A stretch of 64,000 nucleotides of DNA from Bdellovibrio reynosensis (GTDB lineage Bacteria > Bdellovibrionota > Bdellovibrionia > Bdellovibrionales > Bdellovibrionaceae). The position numbers and the translations under genes were made by a program. Where the stretch lies: NCBI RefSeq assembly GCF_022814725.1, contig NZ_CP093442.1, positions 248,001-312,000 on the forward strand. Direction: 5' to 3'. The notes beneath the pieces are model-generated. The model saw nothing but the letters and a program-made list of their open reading frames with translations, searched no databases and was not told where the DNA came from. Of this stretch, positions 39,106 through 48,747 are shown in pieces. Every line of letters starts with the position of its first letter. Position 1 is the stretch's first letter.

Positions 39106-40989
39106 GTGAAACCGATTCTAAAGACGCTTTTTATTGCTGTTGTAACTGTAAGCTCTGCAGCCTTCGCTCGCCCCGAAGCTAAAGTGGTTCCAGGAGAATA
39201 CCTTGTGAAGTTTAAGGCTTCCTCAGGCGGTGCTTCTATTGCCCACCAAAAGATTCAAGGAAAGGCGACTTTAAAAGCCAATTTCCATGGCCTGGGCATG
39301 ATGCAAATCAATATGAAGGCCGGTCCCGATGAAAAAGCCAATTTCGAAGCTTTAAAAAATGACCCCGATGTTGAATACATTGAGCCTAACTACGTTTTAG
39401 AAAAGTCTGATGTTGTCGTCAGTGAGTCTTTTGAACGCCAATCTTACGAACAATTTTCTAATAGTTCTTTTGCATCCACAAATCCCGCGGTGTATTCGCA
39501 AAATAATGCCAATACAGGTATTGATTCAGCGTGGCCTGTTTTAACTGCGTTAGATGGCAGCCATGGCAAAATCGTTGTTGCCGTGATCGATACTGGTTTA
39601 GACAAGAATCATGATGTCTTTAAAGCTTATAACTCAAATGGCTCTGGCGGGACGGGATCGTTGTGGGTGAATCCAATTGAAGCTAATGGTTCCGCAGGCG
39701 TTGATGATGACCAGAACGGTTATGTTGATGACATCAACGGTTGGAACTTTATTAATAACTCAGGCAACTTTGCTGATGACGATGATCACGGAACCCACGT
39801 AGCGGGGATCGTTGTCGGGGCTTCGCAAAATATTTTTGCTCGTCCACTGCAAGAATCAAAAATCCAAATCATGCCTTTAAAATTCTTAGACGGGGCGGGT
39901 TCTGGGTCCACTTCCAACGCGATTCGTGCGATTTATTACGCTGTTAATAACGGTGCAAAAGTCATTAATAATTCTTGGGGAGGCGCTTCTTACAGTCGTG
40001 CCCTTCATGATGCGATCACTTATGCTTACGATCATAAAGTTTTAGTCGTCTGTGCTGCCGGAAACTATGCTAGTGATAACGACGCTTATCCGATGTACCC
40101 GGCAAACTATGATGTTCCAAGCAATCTTTCAGTGGGTTCAACCACGCGCTTTGATGATCTTTCAAGTTTTTCAAATTATGGCGCAAATACAGTTCATATT
40201 GGTAGCCCGGGTGAATATATCGAAAGTACTGTTCCTGGTAATCAGATGATGAAGATGCACGGAACAAGTATGGCCGCTCCGTTTGTTGCGGGGGTGGCAG
40301 CTCTTGCGATGCGTGAAGCTCCCTCATTATCTGGCTATCAGATTAAAGAATTAATATTAAGAACGGGTGATACGAACGGTTATCTTAGCAGTTTGATCTC
40401 CACAAGTTCCCGCATTGATGCCCTTTACTTACTGCAAGAAGCCCAACAAATGGTGTCGACAGCTTCTTCGCAGCCTGGTTACAAGCCGTCTTATTTGTCT
40501 GAGCGGGCTCCGGCGTCTGAGTCTTCAGGCGGTGGCGGTGGCTGCGGTTTAGTAAAAGCGGTGACTGAAAATGGCCCGGGTTCAGGCAGAGGTTCTGGCG
40601 GTGGTGCGGGTGTCGTAATTGGCTTACTGATGATGCCACTGGTGTTCTGGCAGGCTTTAAGAAGCCGTGAACCGAAATCAAAACGTAAATACGAACGCTT
40701 TAAAATGAGTTCTGAAATCCGCGTGATGGTGGGTGATAAAGAACTTGTGGGTAACGTGAACACGATCTCTGAAGGTGGTTTGTCGTTTAATACCGAAGCT
40801 GCTCTTGAAAAAGGCGGCATCGTTACAATGCGAATCCAAAGCCCAGACGGTCACGAGTCCATCGAAGTGCAAGGTCACGTCGTATGGAACGAGAAAAACC
40901 AAGCTTACGGAGTGCAGTTCGATAATGCTAAGCAGGGCGCCCTTGCCATGATTAGGGATTGGTCTGCTAGCTTAGTTAAAAGTAATTAG
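39106..40989 (+). CDS. Subtilase (S8) with transmembrane anchor and C-terminal PilZ domain
   Basis: A 627-residue fusion. Signal peptide 1-21; inhibitor-like propeptide about 25-100 (GEYLVKFKASSGG...DVEYIEPNYV); subtilisin domain about 135-450 with Asp162 (VIDTGLD), His228 (DHGTHVAG) and Ser388 (GTSMAAPF). A Gly/Ser-rich segment with one Cys (GGGGGCGLV, Cys480) leads into a hydrophobic helix at 502-518 (GVVIGLLMMPLVFWQAL), a basic stop-transfer run (RSREPKSKRK) and a PilZ domain from about 525: RKYER fits RxxxR, while TISEGG has Thr where Asp/Asn is usual. Predicted topology: periplasmic protease, cytoplasmic c-di-GMP-type domain. The frame is continuous. GTG start after GGAG. Confidence 0.88.
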   Translation: MKPILKTLFIAVVTVSSAAFARPEAKVVPGEYLVKFKASSGGASIAHQKIQGKATLKANFHGLGMMQINMKAGPDEKANFEALKNDPDVEYIEPNYVLEKSDVVVSESFERQSYEQFSNSSFASTNPAVYSQNNANTGIDSAWPVLTALDGSHGKIVVAVIDTGLDKNHDVFKAYNSNGSGGTGSLWVNPIEANGSAGVDDDQNGYVDDINGWNFINNSGNFADDDDHGTHVAGIVVGASQNIFARPLQESKIQIMPLKFLDGAGSGSTSNAIRAIYYAVNNGAKVINNSWGGASYSRALHDAITYAYDHKVLVVCAAGNYASDNDAYPMYPANYDVPSNLSVGSTTRFDDLSSFSNYGANTVHIGSPGEYIESTVPGNQMMKMHGTSMAAPFVAGVAALAMREAPSLSGYQIKELILRTGDTNGYLSSLISTSSRIDALYLLQEAQQMVSTASSQPGYKPSYLSERAPASESSGGGGGCGLVKAVTENGPGSGRGSGGGAGVVIGLLMMPLVFWQALRSREPKSKRKYERFKMSSEIRVMVGDKELVGNVNTISEGGLSFNTEAALEKGGIVTMRIQSPDGHESIEVQGHVVWNEKNQAYGVQFDNAKQGALAMIRDWSASLVKSN

Positions 40990-41528: not shown

Positions 41529-42872
41529 TTAAAGTAAAATTCCATGAAGTAAGAAGCTCGCCACTGTGAAATAGATCACAAGTCCCGTCACGTCTACCAG
41601 GGTCGCAACCGCAGGAGCAGAAGCAGAAGCGGGGTCAAAGCCCACTTTTTTAAGAATGAATGGAAGCATGGAGCCTGAAATCGTACCCCATAATACGACA
41701 CCCATCACGCTCACACAGACAGTAGCAGCGACCATCATGTAGTGCTCGGTATAAAGGGTTTCACGGTTTGGCCAAAGCATAATACGAATAAATCCAATCG
41801 CACCCAGAAGCACGCCCAGGCAAAGTCCCGTCAGAATCTCGCGACCTAATACACGCCACCAGTCGCGCAGGCGAACCTCGCCAAGAGCGATTGAACGAAT
41901 TAAGATTGTGGAAGCTTGGGAACCAGAGTTACCACCAGAGCTGATGATCAAAGGAATGAACATCGATAGCACGATGGCTTTCGCTAACTCATCTTCAAAA
42001 AAGGCCATTGCCGTCGCAGTGAACATTTCCCCTAAAAAGAGGATCAATAACCAACCGCCACGCTTTTTAAGCATTTCTGCCATCGAGATTTTTAAATAAG
42101 GCGCGTCTAAAGTTTCAACGGCACCGATTTTATGGATATCTTCCGTGGCTTCTTCTTGGATTGCTGTCGCCACGTCATCGAAAGTAACGATACCTTTCAT
42201 GATGCCTGTTTCATCAACAACCGGTACGGCCATTAAATCTTGTTGCGCAAAGATACGGCCGATTTGCTCTTGGTCCATTTCAACAGGGACTTTAAGCACG
42301 TCGGTTTGCATGATCTCTTCAATTTTTCTGCCCGGAGTGGCAGAGAAAAGTTCACGGAATGAAACCACGCCCAGAAGCTTTTGCTCAGAATCTAAAACGT
42401 AAGCGTAATAGATTGTTTCAACGTGGGTCTTAGCTTGAATGCGGATGTAGCTAATCGCTTCATCCACAGTCATCTCGGGACGAAGACGACAGAAACGGGA
42501 ACTCATCAATCCCCCCGCAGCGTCTTCGGCATAAGCTAATAGCACCGTCACTTCACGACGGGTTTGCGGATCTAATAGCGACAATAAATCATCTTTTTGA
42601 TCTAATCCGATTTCTTGAATCAAATCGGCCACGTCATCGGGGGCAAGAAGGCGAATCCAACCACGCTTTTCTAGCGGGGCTGCTTCAGCAATTAATTCGG
42701 CCTGGTCATGGGTCCTAAGACTAAGGAAAAGCTCTTCAGCTTCAGTTCGAGGAAGCTCTTTGAATTTCTCACGACGTTCAGCGGGGGAAAGCGCCGACCA
42801 GGTCTCAGTCAAGCTTAAGACTTCTTCTTGCTCTTGAAGATCTTTTTCAAGGACCTGGTTGTCGTTATCCAT
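41529..42872 (-). CDS. mgtE: Magnesium transporter MgtE
   Basis: A 447-residue MgtE channel for Mg uptake. Order: N-terminal superhelical MgtE_N domain (about 30-130), two CBS domains (about 135-250) starting at SRFCRLRPEMTVDEAISYI, a plug helix, and five membrane helices from about 285 with the family signature ISSGGNSGSQASTILIRSIA. The cytosolic domains sense Mg and gate the pore. The gene appears monocistronic. A tight receiver gene converges on it. Confidence 0.92.
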   Translation of the reverse strand: MDNDNQVLEKDLQEQEEVLSLTETWSALSPAERREKFKELPRTEAEELFLSLRTHDQAELIAEAAPLEKRGWIRLLAPDDVADLIQEIGLDQKDDLLSLLDPQTRREVTVLLAYAEDAAGGLMSSRFCRLRPEMTVDEAISYIRIQAKTHVETIYYAYVLDSEQKLLGVVSFRELFSATPGRKIEEIMQTDVLKVPVEMDQEQIGRIFAQQDLMAVPVVDETGIMKGIVTFDDVATAIQEEATEDIHKIGAVETLDAPYLKISMAEMLKKRGGWLLILFLGEMFTATAMAFFEDELAKAIVLSMFIPLIISSGGNSGSQASTILIRSIALGEVRLRDWWRVLGREILTGLCLGVLLGAIGFIRIMLWPNRETLYTEHYMMVAATVCVSVMGVVLWGTISGSMLPFILKKVGFDPASASAPAVATLVDVTGLVIYFTVASFLLHGILL

Positions 42873-42938: not shown

Positions 42939-44807
42939 TTAGACCAGTTCTGCATTTTTAAACTTCGGAAGAACCTCTTGGGTTGGCCCCAAAGCAACGA
43001 TTTCACCATTCTGCAGCCACAGGATTCTATCACATTTTGCCAGGGTCGAAAGACGATGGGCAATGATGATCTGGGTACGGTCCGAGAAAAACTCTTCTGT
43101 AGCCTTGACCATGATTTCTTCAGACTGCGGATCAACAGAACTTGTTGCCTCATCCATGATCACAATCGGAGCATCTTGCAAAAGACAGCGAGCCATACAA
43201 AGAAGCTGTCTTTCGCCAAGGGATAAATTCTTCCCACGTTCTTCAATCTTCATAAGTAATTTACCGGGCTGAGCTTCGACCCACGCACGTAAACCCACTT
43301 GTTCTAAAACTTCCCATAGTTTTTGATCAGGAAGGTTGTCTTTGATATCTAAGTTAAAGCGCAACGAACCTTGGAATAAGATCGGTTCTTGCGCGATAAA
43401 AGCCAAAGATTGTCGGTAAAGATTTAAATCCACACCGTGGGCATCTTCTTTTAATTTCGGCTGATGTTCATTGATCGAAATAAAACCCTGGCTTAACGGG
43501 TAAAGGTAAAACAGTGCTTGGATCAGGCTTGATTTACCAGAACCTGTGCGACCCACGATGCCTAAACGTTCACCGGCTTTAACTTGAAAATCAACACCTT
43601 TAAGAACCCAGGGCAGGTCATCGCGGTATTTAAACCACAGGTCTTTGACTTCCACCGAAGCATTGCGATTGTCAGTCAGACGGCGAGTCGAAAGATATTT
43701 TTCAACGGATTCAGAATAAACCGCGTGGCCTGTTGTAAATTTAGCTGTGGATGGAAGGTGATTGCCGGCTTCTGTTTCCATGCGCATGTATTGATCTAAG
43801 CGTTCAACACCAATCATCGCTTCTTCAAATTGCGTTAACCACTCAAAGAACATTTGCACAGTGTTTCCGGAAAGTGCAATGAAACTAAACGCCACGCCCA
43901 CCGAACCCACTGTGGCCCATCCATAATCCACCATAAAGTAAGCAGAAACCCCGGTGATCAGTAATAACAGGGCTGTTAAACTGTTCATTTGAAATGAAAA
44001 GCTAAATAGGTTTTTTGAGGTGTTCAATTTTTGCGTTAGGAAATAGCGATCTAAGCGATCAAATCGTTCCGCAAAAGATTTTTGACGGCTGAACGACCGT
44101 ATCGTGCTAGCCCCTTGAGTCGTTTCAGCAAAGTGCGCAATACTTGGGGATCGACTTGCAGAAAGTTCGCGGCGGGAAGCGCGCAGTTTATCGCGGTTTA
44201 AGCGATACACAAGATAGTTCATGACACCGATTAACCCGACAAAAAGCAAATAAATCGGATTTGCAACAGTGATTAGAATCACCATCATCGTAAGATCGAA
44301 GATGATTGAAAGAAACTCGGCTAAGGGACCACCGAACAAGCGAAATACGTTTCCATAGTCGCTAGAAAAACGCGTGATAATTCGGCCAGCCGGCGTGTTG
44401 TCAAAGAATCCCATCGGCAGGCGTGATGTTCTTAAGGTCACTTCATCATAGAATGAAGAAATTGCTAAGGCCGATAATCGAGAAAAGCCCACGCGGAAAA
44501 CCAATGTAAAAGCGAAGCCAGTGACCGCCATCCCACATAATAAAGTAACGAAATCACCGGAATCAAAACCGCTTAACGGCGTGGGTTTACCAACTAAGTT
44601 ATCAACCCAATATCCGATGATGTTTGTATTTGCTAATAACAAACCACGCCCAATAACACCTAAGGCTAAGCAGATCGCAATGCGAGTTAGAAAGGGATTA
44701 TAAGCAAATTTCAGGGTTTCAAAAAGGGTGGGGCTATAGCCGCCTTCTTTTTTGGTATCGCCATCAGAAAGGTATCTTTGCGAGGCTTTGCTAAAATTCT
44801 TAGACAT
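42939..44807 (-). CDS. ABC exporter half-transporter, MRP NBD2-like
   Basis: A 622-residue half-transporter: six membrane helices (about 45-340) then an ATPase domain with Walker A GRTGSGKSSLIQALF, signature LSLGERQLLCMARCLL and Walker B IVIMDEATSSVD with an intact catalytic Glu. The LSxGxRQLLCxARxLL and DEATSSVD wording is that of the second ATPase domain of eukaryotic MRP/ABCC proteins. The ATG at 44807 lies inside the end of the previous half-transporter gene (8-base overlap, GAGG 7 bases ahead); a longer frame upstream was rejected. The pair probably forms a heterodimer. Confidence 0.88.
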   Translation of the reverse strand: MSKNFSKASQRYLSDGDTKKEGGYSPTLFETLKFAYNPFLTRIAICLALGVIGRGLLLANTNIIGYWVDNLVGKPTPLSGFDSGDFVTLLCGMAVTGFAFTLVFRVGFSRLSALAISSFYDEVTLRTSRLPMGFFDNTPAGRIITRFSSDYGNVFRLFGGPLAEFLSIIFDLTMMVILITVANPIYLLFVGLIGVMNYLVYRLNRDKLRASRRELSASRSPSIAHFAETTQGASTIRSFSRQKSFAERFDRLDRYFLTQKLNTSKNLFSFSFQMNSLTALLLLITGVSAYFMVDYGWATVGSVGVAFSFIALSGNTVQMFFEWLTQFEEAMIGVERLDQYMRMETEAGNHLPSTAKFTTGHAVYSESVEKYLSTRRLTDNRNASVEVKDLWFKYRDDLPWVLKGVDFQVKAGERLGIVGRTGSGKSSLIQALFYLYPLSQGFISINEHQPKLKEDAHGVDLNLYRQSLAFIAQEPILFQGSLRFNLDIKDNLPDQKLWEVLEQVGLRAWVEAQPGKLLMKIEERGKNLSLGERQLLCMARCLLQDAPIVIMDEATSSVDPQSEEIMVKATEEFFSDRTQIIIAHRLSTLAKCDRILWLQNGEIVALGPTQEVLPKFKNAELV

Positions 44808-46584
44808 GACTAGCCTCGCTTTGATTTTTTTCCGTGGCTTCTTTAGCGACGGATGTTGTGTATTCGCGGAACTTTTCACTTCTTGCTAAAAGTTCTTCGA
44901 AGGTACCTTGATCAATGATTCGGCCATCCTCCATAAATAAAATTCGATCCACGCGGTGAAGGGCACTAAGACGGTGAGTCACTAATAAGCGCGTTCGATC
45001 TTTCCAGGCACCGATTAAAAGCTGATCAAAAAGTTTTTGTTCGGTATCAACGTCCACCGCGCTTAAGCAATCATCTAGTAACAAGATCGGAGCTTGATGA
45101 TAGTGAACTCGGGCAAGACCCACACGCTGGCGTTGGCCGCCTGAAAGGTTTACGCCACGCTCGCCAATCTCTGTTGCAAGTCCTTTTTCAACACGTTCGC
45201 CACTGAGATCAAACTGTGCAAGCTTTAAAGATTCTTCAACCATGGTGTCACGATCTGGATCGATATCATAAACAAAGGCGACGTTTTCGCGTAACGAGGC
45301 GCTCATGATAAATCCCTCTTGGGGAACATAAGCAAATTGACCGCGGACGTCGTCTAGGGAAATCTGCAAAGCATTCTTTTCGCCCAGGTGATAGAAATTA
45401 AAGTTTGCCCCTGTTTCACGCAAAAGCGAAAGCAGAAGCATGGATTTTCCAGACCCTACTTCGCCAACGATGGCAACAAATTCACCGTGGGCCACATCCA
45501 GGTTGATATCATCTAAAATCTTACGGTTGCGAATAACTAAGTTGAGGCCATGCACTTGCAAGGCGAACTTTTCATCCCGCTTTTGTTCCCGGGTTTTGCT
45601 GCCAAGGGCTGGTGTTTTATTATTTTCCGTACTTAAAAAATCTTCTAGACGCTTTAATGACGTCCATGAATCAAAAGCAAAAGTAAAGAACCACGGCATT
45701 TGACGGAATGGACGGGTTAAGAAAACACCGACAATCCATAAAAGCGCTAACAGCTCGCCCGTGGTTAATTGGTGTTTGGAATAAAAAACCAAAGTTCCCA
45801 GGGCCACAACGTTTAATATGAAAGTGATCGATGAAGAAATCGCATTCATAATCTGACCATTGGTCACCATCATCACGCGGTTGTTGGTTTCAACTTCACG
45901 TTTAGCAAAGATGTTGCTTTCAAAATGTTTAGTCCACCCTAAAATACGAATGGTGCGAATATTTTGCACCCACTCGTTCACAAGACCAATACGTTCTGCT
46001 GCAAGCTGCTTAAAGTTAAAAAAGAACTTTGACTGGCGGAAAGCCATGAACGTATTAAACGAGGCAATCGTGATCATCAGAAGTACGATGGGCCACAGCG
46101 GAACATCAAACAAAACTGAAATCGCAACAGGCGCTAAGATTAACGGAAATAAAGTAGAACATCCAGCTGGTAAAGTTTGATCAAGAAAAACCGTCGCGCC
46201 TTGTACGTCTGTCGCATATAAAGAAACAATTTCTCCGACGGGACGCCCACTCATGGTGTCGACTTGCAGGTTCAGGGTCTTTTCATACACTCTTTGCGCA
46301 AAGATTTTTTGCATGAACAAAGATTCGCGCATACTTAAAAAGTTCGTCAGTTGTGAAAACGCTTGACCCAAAAGCACACACAAGAACGCACCAAGGACAT
46401 AGGTCAGTGGATTATCAAACTGAATGAAGTGAAAGCGGCTTTGCATTCCGGAGATATGATCGATGAATTCTTTTTGAAAAAAAGGTCCCATCAAACCAAG
46501 CACTGCTGCAAACAGCGAACAGAATAGAATCGCTACGCGAGCGTAAAAGCGGGTGAATATGACTTCAGATAAGAGTGACTTCAT
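44800..46584 (-). CDS. ABC exporter half-transporter, MRP NBD1-like (degenerate site)
   Basis: A 594-residue half-transporter with six membrane helices and an ATPase domain: Walker A GEVGSGKSMLLLSLL, signature NLSGGQRQRVGLARVHY and Walker B PILLLDDCLSAVD, where the catalytic Glu is replaced by Asp. GxVGxGKS and DDxLSAVD are the hallmarks of the first, degenerate ATPase domain of ABCC/MRP proteins. With the next gene it makes a split MRP-like exporter with one weak and one strong ATP site. Its start overlaps the oxygenase gene stop by 4 bases. The substrate is unknown. Confidence 0.88.
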   Translation of the reverse strand: MKSLLSEVIFTRFYARVAILFCSLFAAVLGLMGPFFQKEFIDHISGMQSRFHFIQFDNPLTYVLGAFLCVLLGQAFSQLTNFLSMRESLFMQKIFAQRVYEKTLNLQVDTMSGRPVGEIVSLYATDVQGATVFLDQTLPAGCSTLFPLILAPVAISVLFDVPLWPIVLLMITIASFNTFMAFRQSKFFFNFKQLAAERIGLVNEWVQNIRTIRILGWTKHFESNIFAKREVETNNRVMMVTNGQIMNAISSSITFILNVVALGTLVFYSKHQLTTGELLALLWIVGVFLTRPFRQMPWFFTFAFDSWTSLKRLEDFLSTENNKTPALGSKTREQKRDEKFALQVHGLNLVIRNRKILDDINLDVAHGEFVAIVGEVGSGKSMLLLSLLRETGANFNFYHLGEKNALQISLDDVRGQFAYVPQEGFIMSASLRENVAFVYDIDPDRDTMVEESLKLAQFDLSGERVEKGLATEIGERGVNLSGGQRQRVGLARVHYHQAPILLLDDCLSAVDVDTEQKLFDQLLIGAWKDRTRLLVTHRLSALHRVDRILFMEDGRIIDQGTFEELLARSEKFREYTTSVAKEATEKNQSEASHV

Positions 46585-47171
46585 GATGCATCGTCCCTAA
46601 ACCAACCCGTTAAACTTAAGCGGGGCTGAATGCTCTTCGCGACTTGATGAGGGAAGAGTTCACTGCGAAAAAGTACAAAAGTTCCAAGACGCGGTTCAAC
46701 TTGCGCGATCTTAATATCTTGATTTTCAGGATCATAGATTTCTAATTCGCCGCCGTGACCTTTTTCCCAGTGCTCATTAAGGTACAGAATGAAAGTGACC
46801 TTTCGTGCTCCGGAACCTTTATGATTATCGATATGCTTATCATAGTGGGCGCCCGGTGGATATAAGGCAAAATGTGTCTCGTATCTTTTGAGCCCCAAAT
46901 AAAAAGCAGAGTTTAAATTTTCTAAAATGCTTTGAAGACTGGCAAGAAACTGCTGTTGCACGGGGGACGTTTCTTTTTCATCAAGCCAGTAAGTAAAATC
47001 GCCGCGAATTTCAGCATGGGTCCCTTTGCTGGCCCCATGTCCGATGGAAGCTTTTTGCAACTGACCTTGTGTTGAAAGCCTTTGACACTCTTGGGCAAGG
47101 GACTTGCAGAAATCTAGAGTGAAAACATCCCCTGAGTAAGCCCAGTTATTCTGTGCTAACTCATCAAACAT
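46581..47171 (-). CDS. 2OG-Fe(II) oxygenase, prolyl-hydroxylase (PHD/SM-20) like
   Basis: A 196-residue oxygenase using 2-oxoglutarate, iron and oxygen. The iron and cosubstrate residues are readable: HxD in YDKHIDNHKGSG, distal His in LFPHQVAKS and Arg in QPRLSLTGWF. ARKVTFILYLNEHW...GHGGELEIY is close to the EGL-9/PHD family, whose bacterial member in Pseudomonas hydroxylates a proline of EF-Tu. A TTG at 47210 gives 13 more residues, but would leave only 31 bases to the divergent gene, so the ATG at 47171 is preferred without strong proof. It is the first gene of an operon with the split ABC exporter. Confidence 0.82.
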   Translation of the reverse strand: MFDELAQNNWAYSGDVFTLDFCKSLAQECQRLSTQGQLQKASIGHGASKGTHAEIRGDFTYWLDEKETSPVQQQFLASLQSILENLNSAFYLGLKRYETHFALYPPGAHYDKHIDNHKGSGARKVTFILYLNEHWEKGHGGELEIYDPENQDIKIAQVEPRLGTFVLFRSELFPHQVAKSIQPRLSLTGWFRDDAS

Positions 47172-47241
47172 TCTTTCTAGCGCTGTATGATTGAATTGAT
47201 TCCTGTCCAAAGTGTTGCCATTCTATTCACGAGAGGGATTG

Positions 47242-48747
47242 ATGGCAAAACGTTCTTTTACCCGTCGCGAGTTTTTAAAGGTTTCTGCTCTAGGAACTTC
47301 GGCTATGGCTCTTAGCAGTTGCACTAGCATGGATCGCTATTTCATGGGCGATAGCAGAGATCTTAAAAATGAAGTTCTCATTTTAGGAGCAGGGGCGGCG
47401 GGCCTTTCAGCAGCATTTGAACTTAAAAGAAATAAGGTGCCTTTCCGCATTTTTGAAGCTTCTTCCCGCATTGGGGGGCGCGTTCAGAGTGTTGCAGCAT
47501 ATCAAGAACAAGGGCCCATCGCAGAACTTGGTGCTGAGTACATTGATCTAAGTCATACCGATGTTTTTAATTTGGCAAAGGAACTGAATTTACCTCTGAC
47601 AGAGTTAAAATCTTTACCGAATCTTGAAGCCCATCTTTTTTCGTTTGCAGGTAAGACTTATCGCGTGAAGGAACTTGTGCCAAAGTTAAAATCTTTGCAG
47701 ACACCTTTGCGCCGTATTCGCAGTGATCTTTACCGTGATCAAGAAGTCGTGCTGAATCATGCAAACTCTTTGCAGTATGAACGATCCCTTTACTATGACA
47801 CTTTATCATTAAAAGATCTTTTAGAATCCTGGGTGACGGAAGTGGATCCAGTGATTTTAAAATTAATCGAAGTTCAAGCTGTGCAACGTTTTGGTGTGGA
47901 TGCAAAAGACCAGTCAGCACTTCACTTTCTTTCAACTTTAGATGGTGAAGGAAGTTCGCTTTTAAGTGGTCGCACGACTCATCGTATGGACGGTGGATTG
48001 TCAGGGATGACGCAAACCCTGGCAGCAAGGGTGGCCGGGGTTATCCCTGATCATATCCTACGGTTAAATTCCGCTTTGATTGAAGTTGAAGAAAAAGAAA
48101 ATGTTTTTACCTTCGTTTTTGCAACACCGAAAGGAAAAGAAAGAATCACGGCACGCACGGTGATTTGCACAATTCCCTTTTCGAAATTGCGCGAAGTGAA
48201 GGGTATTGAAAAATTGCGTTTTTCAGATCTGAAACATGAAAACATCAAAAACCAAGCCTATGCCACCCATAGCAAAGTAATTATTCCGTTTGCTGTACCT
48301 TTCTGGAACGCCCGCCGTGGAAATACGCCTGCCAACGTCGGCAATTTCACGGGCGATTTTACTTCGCAAAAAATCTGGGATTCTTCCCGCGCTCAGGAGG
48401 TTAGCCAAGGTTTACTGACTTCACAGCGCGCCGGAAACAGTGGCGCAAAGGCTGGAGCAGTGGCCGTTGACGAAACGCTGAAAGACTTAAAACTGTTTTA
48501 TAACGACATTCCAAACTATGAAGACTGGGGAGCCCAAGTGGCGAACTGGTCCACAAGGAAATGGAGTGCTGGTTCCATGTCAGTATTTAAACCAGGTCAG
48601 TACATGAAGTACAAAGGTGTTGCTGCGATTCCAGAATACGACGGCAAATTCCTATTTGCCGGGGAACACACAAGCTTAAGATTCGCGGGCACCTTACAAG
48701 GAGCCATCGAAACAGGGATCAAGGCTGCTCAAACTATCACAGTATAA
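47242..48747 (+). CDS. Tat-exported flavin amine oxidase, probable lipoprotein
   Basis: A 501-residue FAD amine oxidase. The N-terminus has a twin-arginine signal (FTRREFLKVSALG) that ends in a lipobox-like LSSC, so it is probably exported folded and then lipidated. FAD binding: VLILGAGAAGLSAAFELKR and EASSRIGGRVQS; the C-terminal FAD block is FAGEHTSLRFAGTLQGAIETG. It oxidises amines or amino acids and releases peroxide and ammonia; the substrate is unknown. GAGGG 5 bases ahead of the ATG at 47242 decides the start. A strong terminator follows. Confidence 0.88.
   Translation: MAKRSFTRREFLKVSALGTSAMALSSCTSMDRYFMGDSRDLKNEVLILGAGAAGLSAAFELKRNKVPFRIFEASSRIGGRVQSVAAYQEQGPIAELGAEYIDLSHTDVFNLAKELNLPLTELKSLPNLEAHLFSFAGKTYRVKELVPKLKSLQTPLRRIRSDLYRDQEVVLNHANSLQYERSLYYDTLSLKDLLESWVTEVDPVILKLIEVQAVQRFGVDAKDQSALHFLSTLDGEGSSLLSGRTTHRMDGGLSGMTQTLAARVAGVIPDHILRLNSALIEVEEKENVFTFVFATPKGKERITARTVICTIPFSKLREVKGIEKLRFSDLKHENIKNQAYATHSKVIIPFAVPFWNARRGNTPANVGNFTGDFTSQKIWDSSRAQEVSQGLLTSQRAGNSGAKAGAVAVDETLKDLKLFYNDIPNYEDWGAQVANWSTRKWSAGSMSVFKPGQYMKYKGVAAIPEYDGKFLFAGEHTSLRFAGTLQGAIETGIKAAQTITV

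Follow-up and report, generated by a model that had tools for sequence, protein, structure and literature searches.

A split ABCC-like transporter gene pair linked to a prolyl-hydroxylase-like oxygenase in Bdellovibrio reynosensis and its relatives

The window analysed in this work is a 64,000-nucleotide stretch (G000:C1:248001-312000) of the Bdellovibrio reynosensis genome, which is a single contig of 3,582,323 bases. Encoded on its reverse strand, in order of transcription, are a prolyl-hydroxylase-like (PHD-like) 2-oxoglutarate (2OG)/Fe(II) oxygenase, hereafter PHD, and two half transporters, ABC1 and ABC2, each with an ABC-type membrane region joined to an ATPase domain; an MgtE gene follows, and a flavin amine oxidase gene is divergent from PHD (Table 1). 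The preliminary description had placed the unit at 42939-47171. Its open reading frames were recovered and its right-hand end was moved, since 47171 corresponds to an internal ATG and PHD probably starts at TTG 47210, a start codon found in all 19 genus sequences compared, with similar codons after it. The ABC2 open frame taken from its first GTG spans 42939-44879, and the ATG at 44807 is the likelier start. At 39106-40989 a subtilase-like protein is encoded; judged by eye, its C-terminal end resembles a Gly-rich sorting tail with a membrane segment and a PilZ-like domain.

Table 1. Features of the transporter-oxygenase locus (window coordinates)
Feature	Position	Strand	Remarks
PHD-like 2OG/Fe(II) oxygenase (PHD)	46581..47210	-	TTG start (probable); match to 2OG-FeII_Oxy_3
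ABC1, TMD1-NBD1-type half transporter	44800..46584	-	Walker B D504-D505 (45070-45075), LSGGQ (45133-45147)
ABC2, TMD2-NBD2-type half transporter	42939..44807	-	LSLGE signature (43212-43226), catalytic-type E553 (43149-43151), H584
ATGA overlap, PHD stop/ABC1 start, 4 nt	46581..46584	-	ORF coordinates
Overlap, ABC1 stop/ABC2 ATG start, 8 nt	44800..44807	-	ORF coordinates
MgtE magnesium transporter gene	41529..42872	-	66 nt downstream of ABC2, same strand
Flavin amine oxidase/L-amino-acid-oxidase-like protein	47242..48747	+	Divergent from PHD; Tat motif RREFLK
Promoter-like TTGCCA-17-TAGAAT	47220..47248	-	Directly upstream of PHD start

The overlaps among the three genes were as previously described (Table 1). 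The 4-nt PHD/ABC1 overlap recurs in 31/45 other linked loci and an overlap of any length in 40/45, with start codons picked mechanically and proteins of <150 aa left out of these counts. We infer that PHD and ABC1 are translationally coupled via the ATGA overlap; the pump genes are probably translated together with the oxygenase, and MgtE is possibly the last gene of the operon.

Between PHD and the amine oxidase gene, the DNA at 47189-47225, which includes the first PHD codons, is near-invariant in 14 genus sequences, and the promoter-like element touches this block, which is common to both divergent genes. Because the divergent region is near-invariant at the DNA level, the two genes probably have overlapping promoters. 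Conservation is better evidence for a promoter than the promoter scan, which returned 5 sites against a shuffle mean of 11.2, i.e. fewer than expected; an Rfam search gave no match. In the amine oxidase, a twin-arginine motif is followed, past a hydrophobic stretch, by a recurrent Cys (lipobox-like), and for these features the protein looks like a Tat-exported lipoprotein. By a loose pattern, the Tat motif was present in 55/56 family amine oxidases.

The Walker B motif is D504-D505 in ABC1, which has a canonical LSGGQ signature, and D552-E553 in ABC2, which has LSLGE. D505 was invariant in an alignment of 18 ABC1 sequences. Asp-Asp in Walker B together with [LI]SGGQ was found in 33/33 split ABC1 domains (a single one having ISGGQ), and xSxGE together with Asp-Glu in 31/32 split ABC2 domains, the remaining one having no recognised signature, which agrees with the degenerate NBD1 and the NBD2 signatures originally proposed. 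This division of motifs between the two proteins implies that a single ATP site works and that the other is degenerate, as in ABCC. L078 was left out of the ABC2 alignment owing to a stop within its coordinates, and a structure model of ABC2 alone (pLDDT 40.0) was not used as evidence.

Family placement was carried out with profile models, solved structures and trees of the ATPase domains. The top NCBIfam model for both halves was TIGR00957 (MRP), ABC1 matching model positions 330-873 and ABC2 positions 1038-1506, at scores far under the curated cut-off; this cut-off, 1470 bits, was made for the full-length protein. Among solved-structure matches obtained with family profiles, the N half of MRP1 came first for ABC1, and the C halves of ABCC5, ABCC2 and ABCC4 came first for ABC2. 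Since whole-sequence scores of full-length transporters are inflated by their two domains, single domains were compared instead; the ABC1 ATPase domain scored 128.8 bits to MRP1 NBD1 versus 81.9 bits to NBD2. For the ABC2 ATPase domain alone, a whole-sequence phmmer search placed ABCB4 at the top (115.9 and 121.4 bits for its two domains), mixed with ABCC proteins, and this mixed list was resolved by a 50-domain ATPase tree. ABC1 grouped there with bacterial single-chain NBD1 plus MRP1 NBD1 (support 96), and ABC2 with single-chain NBD2 plus MRP1 NBD2 (support 99); the next branch was the ordinary heterodimer of the same genome (G000:C1:3342588-3345045), with strong support for ABC1 (100) and weak support for ABC2 (58). 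A 92-domain tree was built with FastTree, whose supports are quoted, after 8/18 ABC1 and 8/17 ABC2 alignment rows had been marked for thinning. In this tree 25 split ABC1 domains formed one group and 24 split ABC2 domains another, each beside the fused forms (0.999 and 0.978); support was weak (0.575) for joining MRP1 NBD1 to fused bacterial NBD1 and moderate (0.771) for the split ABC2 group. MRP1 was the one eukaryotic ABCC protein in both trees. A grouping with ABCB, which would have counted against the first proposal, was thus not seen in either tree, and a plain ABCB-like exporter was rejected because both ATPase domains group with the matching MRP half.

Full ABCC/MRP transporters (MRP1, ABCC2, ABCC4, ABCC5, YCF1) resemble the pair in having Asp-Asp and LSGGQ in NBD1 and Glu with a non-consensus signature in NBD2 (MRP1 compared), as well as in the grouping of each window half with its own MRP half. 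They are built as one chain (TMD1-NBD1-TMD2-NBD2), whereas the pair is encoded by two overlapping genes, and the MRP1 NBD2 signature has Gln where split ABC2 has Glu. A shortened stretch between Walker A and the Q-loop of NBD1 is a hallmark of ABCC. Counted between Walker A Lys and Q-loop Gln, MRP1 NBD1 has 29 residues, but window ABC1 has 42, as do most split ABC1, ABCB4 and other bacterial exporters of the set. Some split ABC1 proteins have been separately shortened (28 residues in some family members, by alignment those of genus g3; 37 in L208). We place ABC1 and ABC2 beside ABCC as a two-gene sister lineage and not within ABCC proper, on the basis of the two chains and the unshortened NBD1 spacing. 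The split MRP/ABCC-like exporter first proposed was therefore upheld in the kinship of its halves with MRP NBD1 and NBD2 and revised as to its position, beside ABCC and not inside it.

Bacterial single-chain MRP-like proteins of the same phylum (1231-1263 aa; L171-L173, L211-L214) share the domain order and similar motifs, and are the sister group of the two-gene pair in both ATPase trees. They differ from the window pair in being fused, in their NBD1 spacing (32-40 residues in 7/7) and in their NBD2 signature, LSQGQ. Such open reading frames occur in several genus genomes and in relatives (L211 at G006:C1:2494000-2510000, L173, L214, L171, L172, L212 and L213); none was seen in the window's own genome. 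Known bacterial heterodimers of the BmrCD/TmrAB/TM287-288 kind also combine one degenerate with one working ATP site. Like them the pair has two genes and one degenerate site, and it probably works as they do; it differs in that it falls with the MRP domains in the tree and not with the heterodimer of its own genome, BmrCD and the like not being in the tree.

The PHD/SM-20-like identity of the oxygenase was borne out by its 2OG-FeII_Oxy_3 match and by comparison with solved structures, of which the best relative was 4iw3, the prolyl hydroxylase (PPHD) of Pseudomonas putida with EF-Tu (E 5.7e-42). A structure model of PHD (pLDDT 89.4) was aligned to 4iw3 with Z 29.5 and an rmsd of 1.7 over 198 aligned residues at 37% identity, and PHD2 and other structures reached at most Z 25.5; Foldseek placed 4iw3 first, and the best 50 structural matches listed (VIA list) were prolyl hydroxylases alone. 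The model has a DSBH fold with an HxD...H metal triad and a 2OG Arg, as in PPHD/PHD2-type enzymes, and H126, D128, H188 and R197, which we take to be the metal and 2OG ligands of the family, were invariant in 39/39 aligned sequences. PHD is thus like PPHD in its whole-length fold and ligand residues, but belongs to a pump-linked branch and overlaps a pump gene.

For the PHD tree, which had 64 rows, most of the near-identical sequences from the genus were thinned out. In it PPHD (4iw3) joined the unlinked PHDs (97/90), and pump-linked PHDs lay elsewhere, several deep branches being weak. A single clade of linked PHDs alone, that of G013 included, was rejected (p 0.0006), because the PHD of G035 nests with Alcaligenaceae PHDs; a clade of linked PHDs plus six Alcaligenaceae PHDs was not rejected (p 0.068), and a joint clade of linked PHDs, Alcaligenaceae PHDs and PPHD was weakly rejected (p 0.035). 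The G035 pump-linked PHD (L084) groups with Alcaligenaceae PHDs L180, L182, L187, L188, L192 and L201 (100/99), which suggests gene transfer. The neighbours of Alcaligenaceae PHDs look variable from ORF layout alone, and an ABC1 orthologue was not found in the 9 genomes searched. At L090:6048-8759 (G102), a PHD gene of the unlinked branch lies ~120 nt downstream of another ABC exporter gene, whose product is 24% identical to ABC1.

ABC1 was detected in 79/118 relatives (E <=1e-60), including all 66 family genomes with the window's own counted and G033 by a partial match only. Across the phylum, 92/368 genomes had an ABC1 match (E <=1e-58), a count that takes in single-chain relatives, and the pair is patchy. 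Nine two-gene loci outside the order (L202-L210) have the pair with no adjoining PHD, oxidase or MgtE. At L206:1651-4527 the ABC1 orthologue lies in a 960-aa open frame with ~370 extra N-terminal residues that match no Pfam family. Among 299 Pseudomonadota genomes, with 4 candidates scored per genome, no ABC1 match was found at E 1e-58 and one at 1e-55. L235 (G422) of the Pseudomonadota set is a tandem pair with DD and LSTGE motifs and 32% identity to ABC1.

In 64/64 assessable other family loci, 41/41 in other genera, ABC1 is followed by ABC2 as a gene of its own; these counts leave out G036, where the apparent ABC2 match falls within ABC1 itself, at the end of a contig. PHD was found in 71/118 relatives and lies directly upstream of ABC1 in 46/50 PHD-bearing family genomes, own counted, the exceptions being G013 (PHD moved by ~34 kb), G036, G047 and G050. 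Counted by genus, PHD lies immediately before ABC1 in the window's own genome, in 22/23 genus genomes and in 23/41 assessable other-genus genomes, so that the conserved linkage of the three-gene unit, on which the original proposal depended, is present, and a split ABCC-like pump linked to PHD is supported. The pump is kept with no PHD in the slot in 18/41 assessable other-genus family genomes and in 1/23 within the genus, and other families of the order commonly have PHDs with no adjoining pump; strict dependence of pump and PHD on each other was rejected on both grounds. In PHD-less loci the slot is empty and is closed by the approach of oxidase and pump genes to each other. The amine oxidase is kept in 22/22 genus loci and 35/39 other-genus loci, and MgtE in 21/22 and 31/35, respectively. 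In other genera, the flanking genes on the other side are mostly gone (p171 5/36, p575 8/33, response regulator 4/31, trypsin 0/31), and farther downstream the S8 protease is kept in 22/26 loci and DUF502 in several. Chance adjacency of PHD and pump was rejected, since the slot is kept while p171, p575 and trypsin are mostly lost. Oxidase, pump and MgtE are a stable block and PHD is a facultative member, as the block is kept in other genera while PHD is present in only 23/41.

Open-licence literature was searched for earlier accounts. No paper joining Bdellovibrio, ABC transporter and multidrug resistance-associated protein was found there, nothing related was found on Bdellovibrio prolyl hydroxylase, and among the matches listed none described a pump-PHD system.

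With moderate confidence, we favour a reading in which PHD is an accessory hydroxylase of proteins, expressed jointly with an ABCC-type pump. ABC1 and ABC2 would form a heterodimeric ABCC (MRP)-type ABC exporter kept as two genes, in which ABC1, with Asp for the catalytic Glu, may supply the degenerate ATP site and the LSxGE signature of ABC2 would complete it. The second site, formed by the Walker B Glu and the His of ABC2 with the LSGGQ of ABC1, would hydrolyse ATP and so drive export across the inner membrane. Pump and PHD-like 2OG/Fe(II)/O2 hydroxylase, perhaps with MgtE, would share one message, and the amine oxidase of the opposite strand, putatively Tat-exported, would act on the outside of the inner membrane or farther out. 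The hydroxylase itself would be an accessory protein (prolyl) hydroxylase from a pump-linked branch of the PPHD/PHD2 family, not required by the pump.

Other explanations were weighed against the same observations. Asymmetric DD/LSxGE pairs occur in ordinary bacterial heterodimers, and the window's own genome has such a heterodimer, the next branch on both sides of the 50-domain tree, so that ABC1/ABC2 could be an ordinary ABCB/MsbA-like or BmrCD/TmrAB-like heterodimer that resembles MRP by chance; with both domains joining their own MRP half in both trees, apart from that heterodimer, we regard this as very improbable. PHD, pump, oxidase and MgtE could also share only regulation or a stable neighbourhood, with no mutual action, which fits the retention of the S8 protease and DUF502 farther downstream, the facultative presence of PHD, the PHDs found elsewhere with no pump and the occurrence of the pair alone in other families. 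PHD nevertheless keeps its slot and its overlap while the upstream p171, p575 and trypsin genes are mostly lost, and occupies that slot in nearly all PHD-bearing family genomes, which makes such an arrangement possible though rather doubtful.

Two further readings, in which the hydroxylase acts on the cargo or on the control of the pump, rank lower than the accessory hydroxylase, and both seem unlikely. ABCC pumps of known function transport conjugates and anions, and a hydroxylase tailoring a peptide or small-molecule cargo, with the amine oxidase outside serving the same pathway, would be in keeping with the frequent PHD/ABC1 gene overlap and with the divergent Tat amine oxidase kept in most other-genus loci. 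Pump and oxidase remain in many genomes that have no PHD, however, no precursor-peptide or biosynthetic gene was seen within the block, and the closest solved PHD relatives act on proteins. Alternatively, PHD could hydroxylate EF-Tu or a pump subunit and thereby tie pump production or activity to oxygen. Its fold is nearest to PPHD in complex with EF-Tu, and Pro54 is present in switch I of the organism's EF-Tu (IDKSPEERERGITI), but this residue is to our knowledge near-universal and so carries little weight. PPHD of Pseudomonas putida hydroxylates EF-Tu, according to PMC7864055 and PMC5701443; the pump-linked PHDs form a different branch, and since PPHD groups with the unlinked PHDs its target is not simply transferable to the window PHD. 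Proline columns of ABC1, ABC2, MgtE and the amine oxidase were inspected in a set drawn mostly from one genus and none tracks PHD presence, so that a target proline in these proteins that follows PHD presence was rejected. We consider it quite unlikely that predatory bacteria have here an oxygen-gated export unit, in which a dedicated prolyl hydroxylase would mark a cargo or pump-control protein under oxygen and the pump would be a surviving two-gene ABCC sister, split off before fusion and NBD1 shortening.

The main interest of the locus, with the accessory hydroxylase as the favoured reading, lies in the place of the pump beside the ABCC family and in its persistent overlap with a hydroxylase gene. 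Most of what is known of ABCC pumps (MRP, CFTR, SUR) concerns single-chain proteins of eukaryotes, among them the MRP drug pumps found in plants and animals, and a two-gene bacterial sister lying outside the fused forms on both halves would offer a natural system for the pre-fusion origin of asymmetric ATP sites. The conserved overlap with a hypoxia-sensor-type hydroxylase may likewise provide a second bacterial setting, beside Pseudomonas PPHD, for a role of prolyl hydroxylation.
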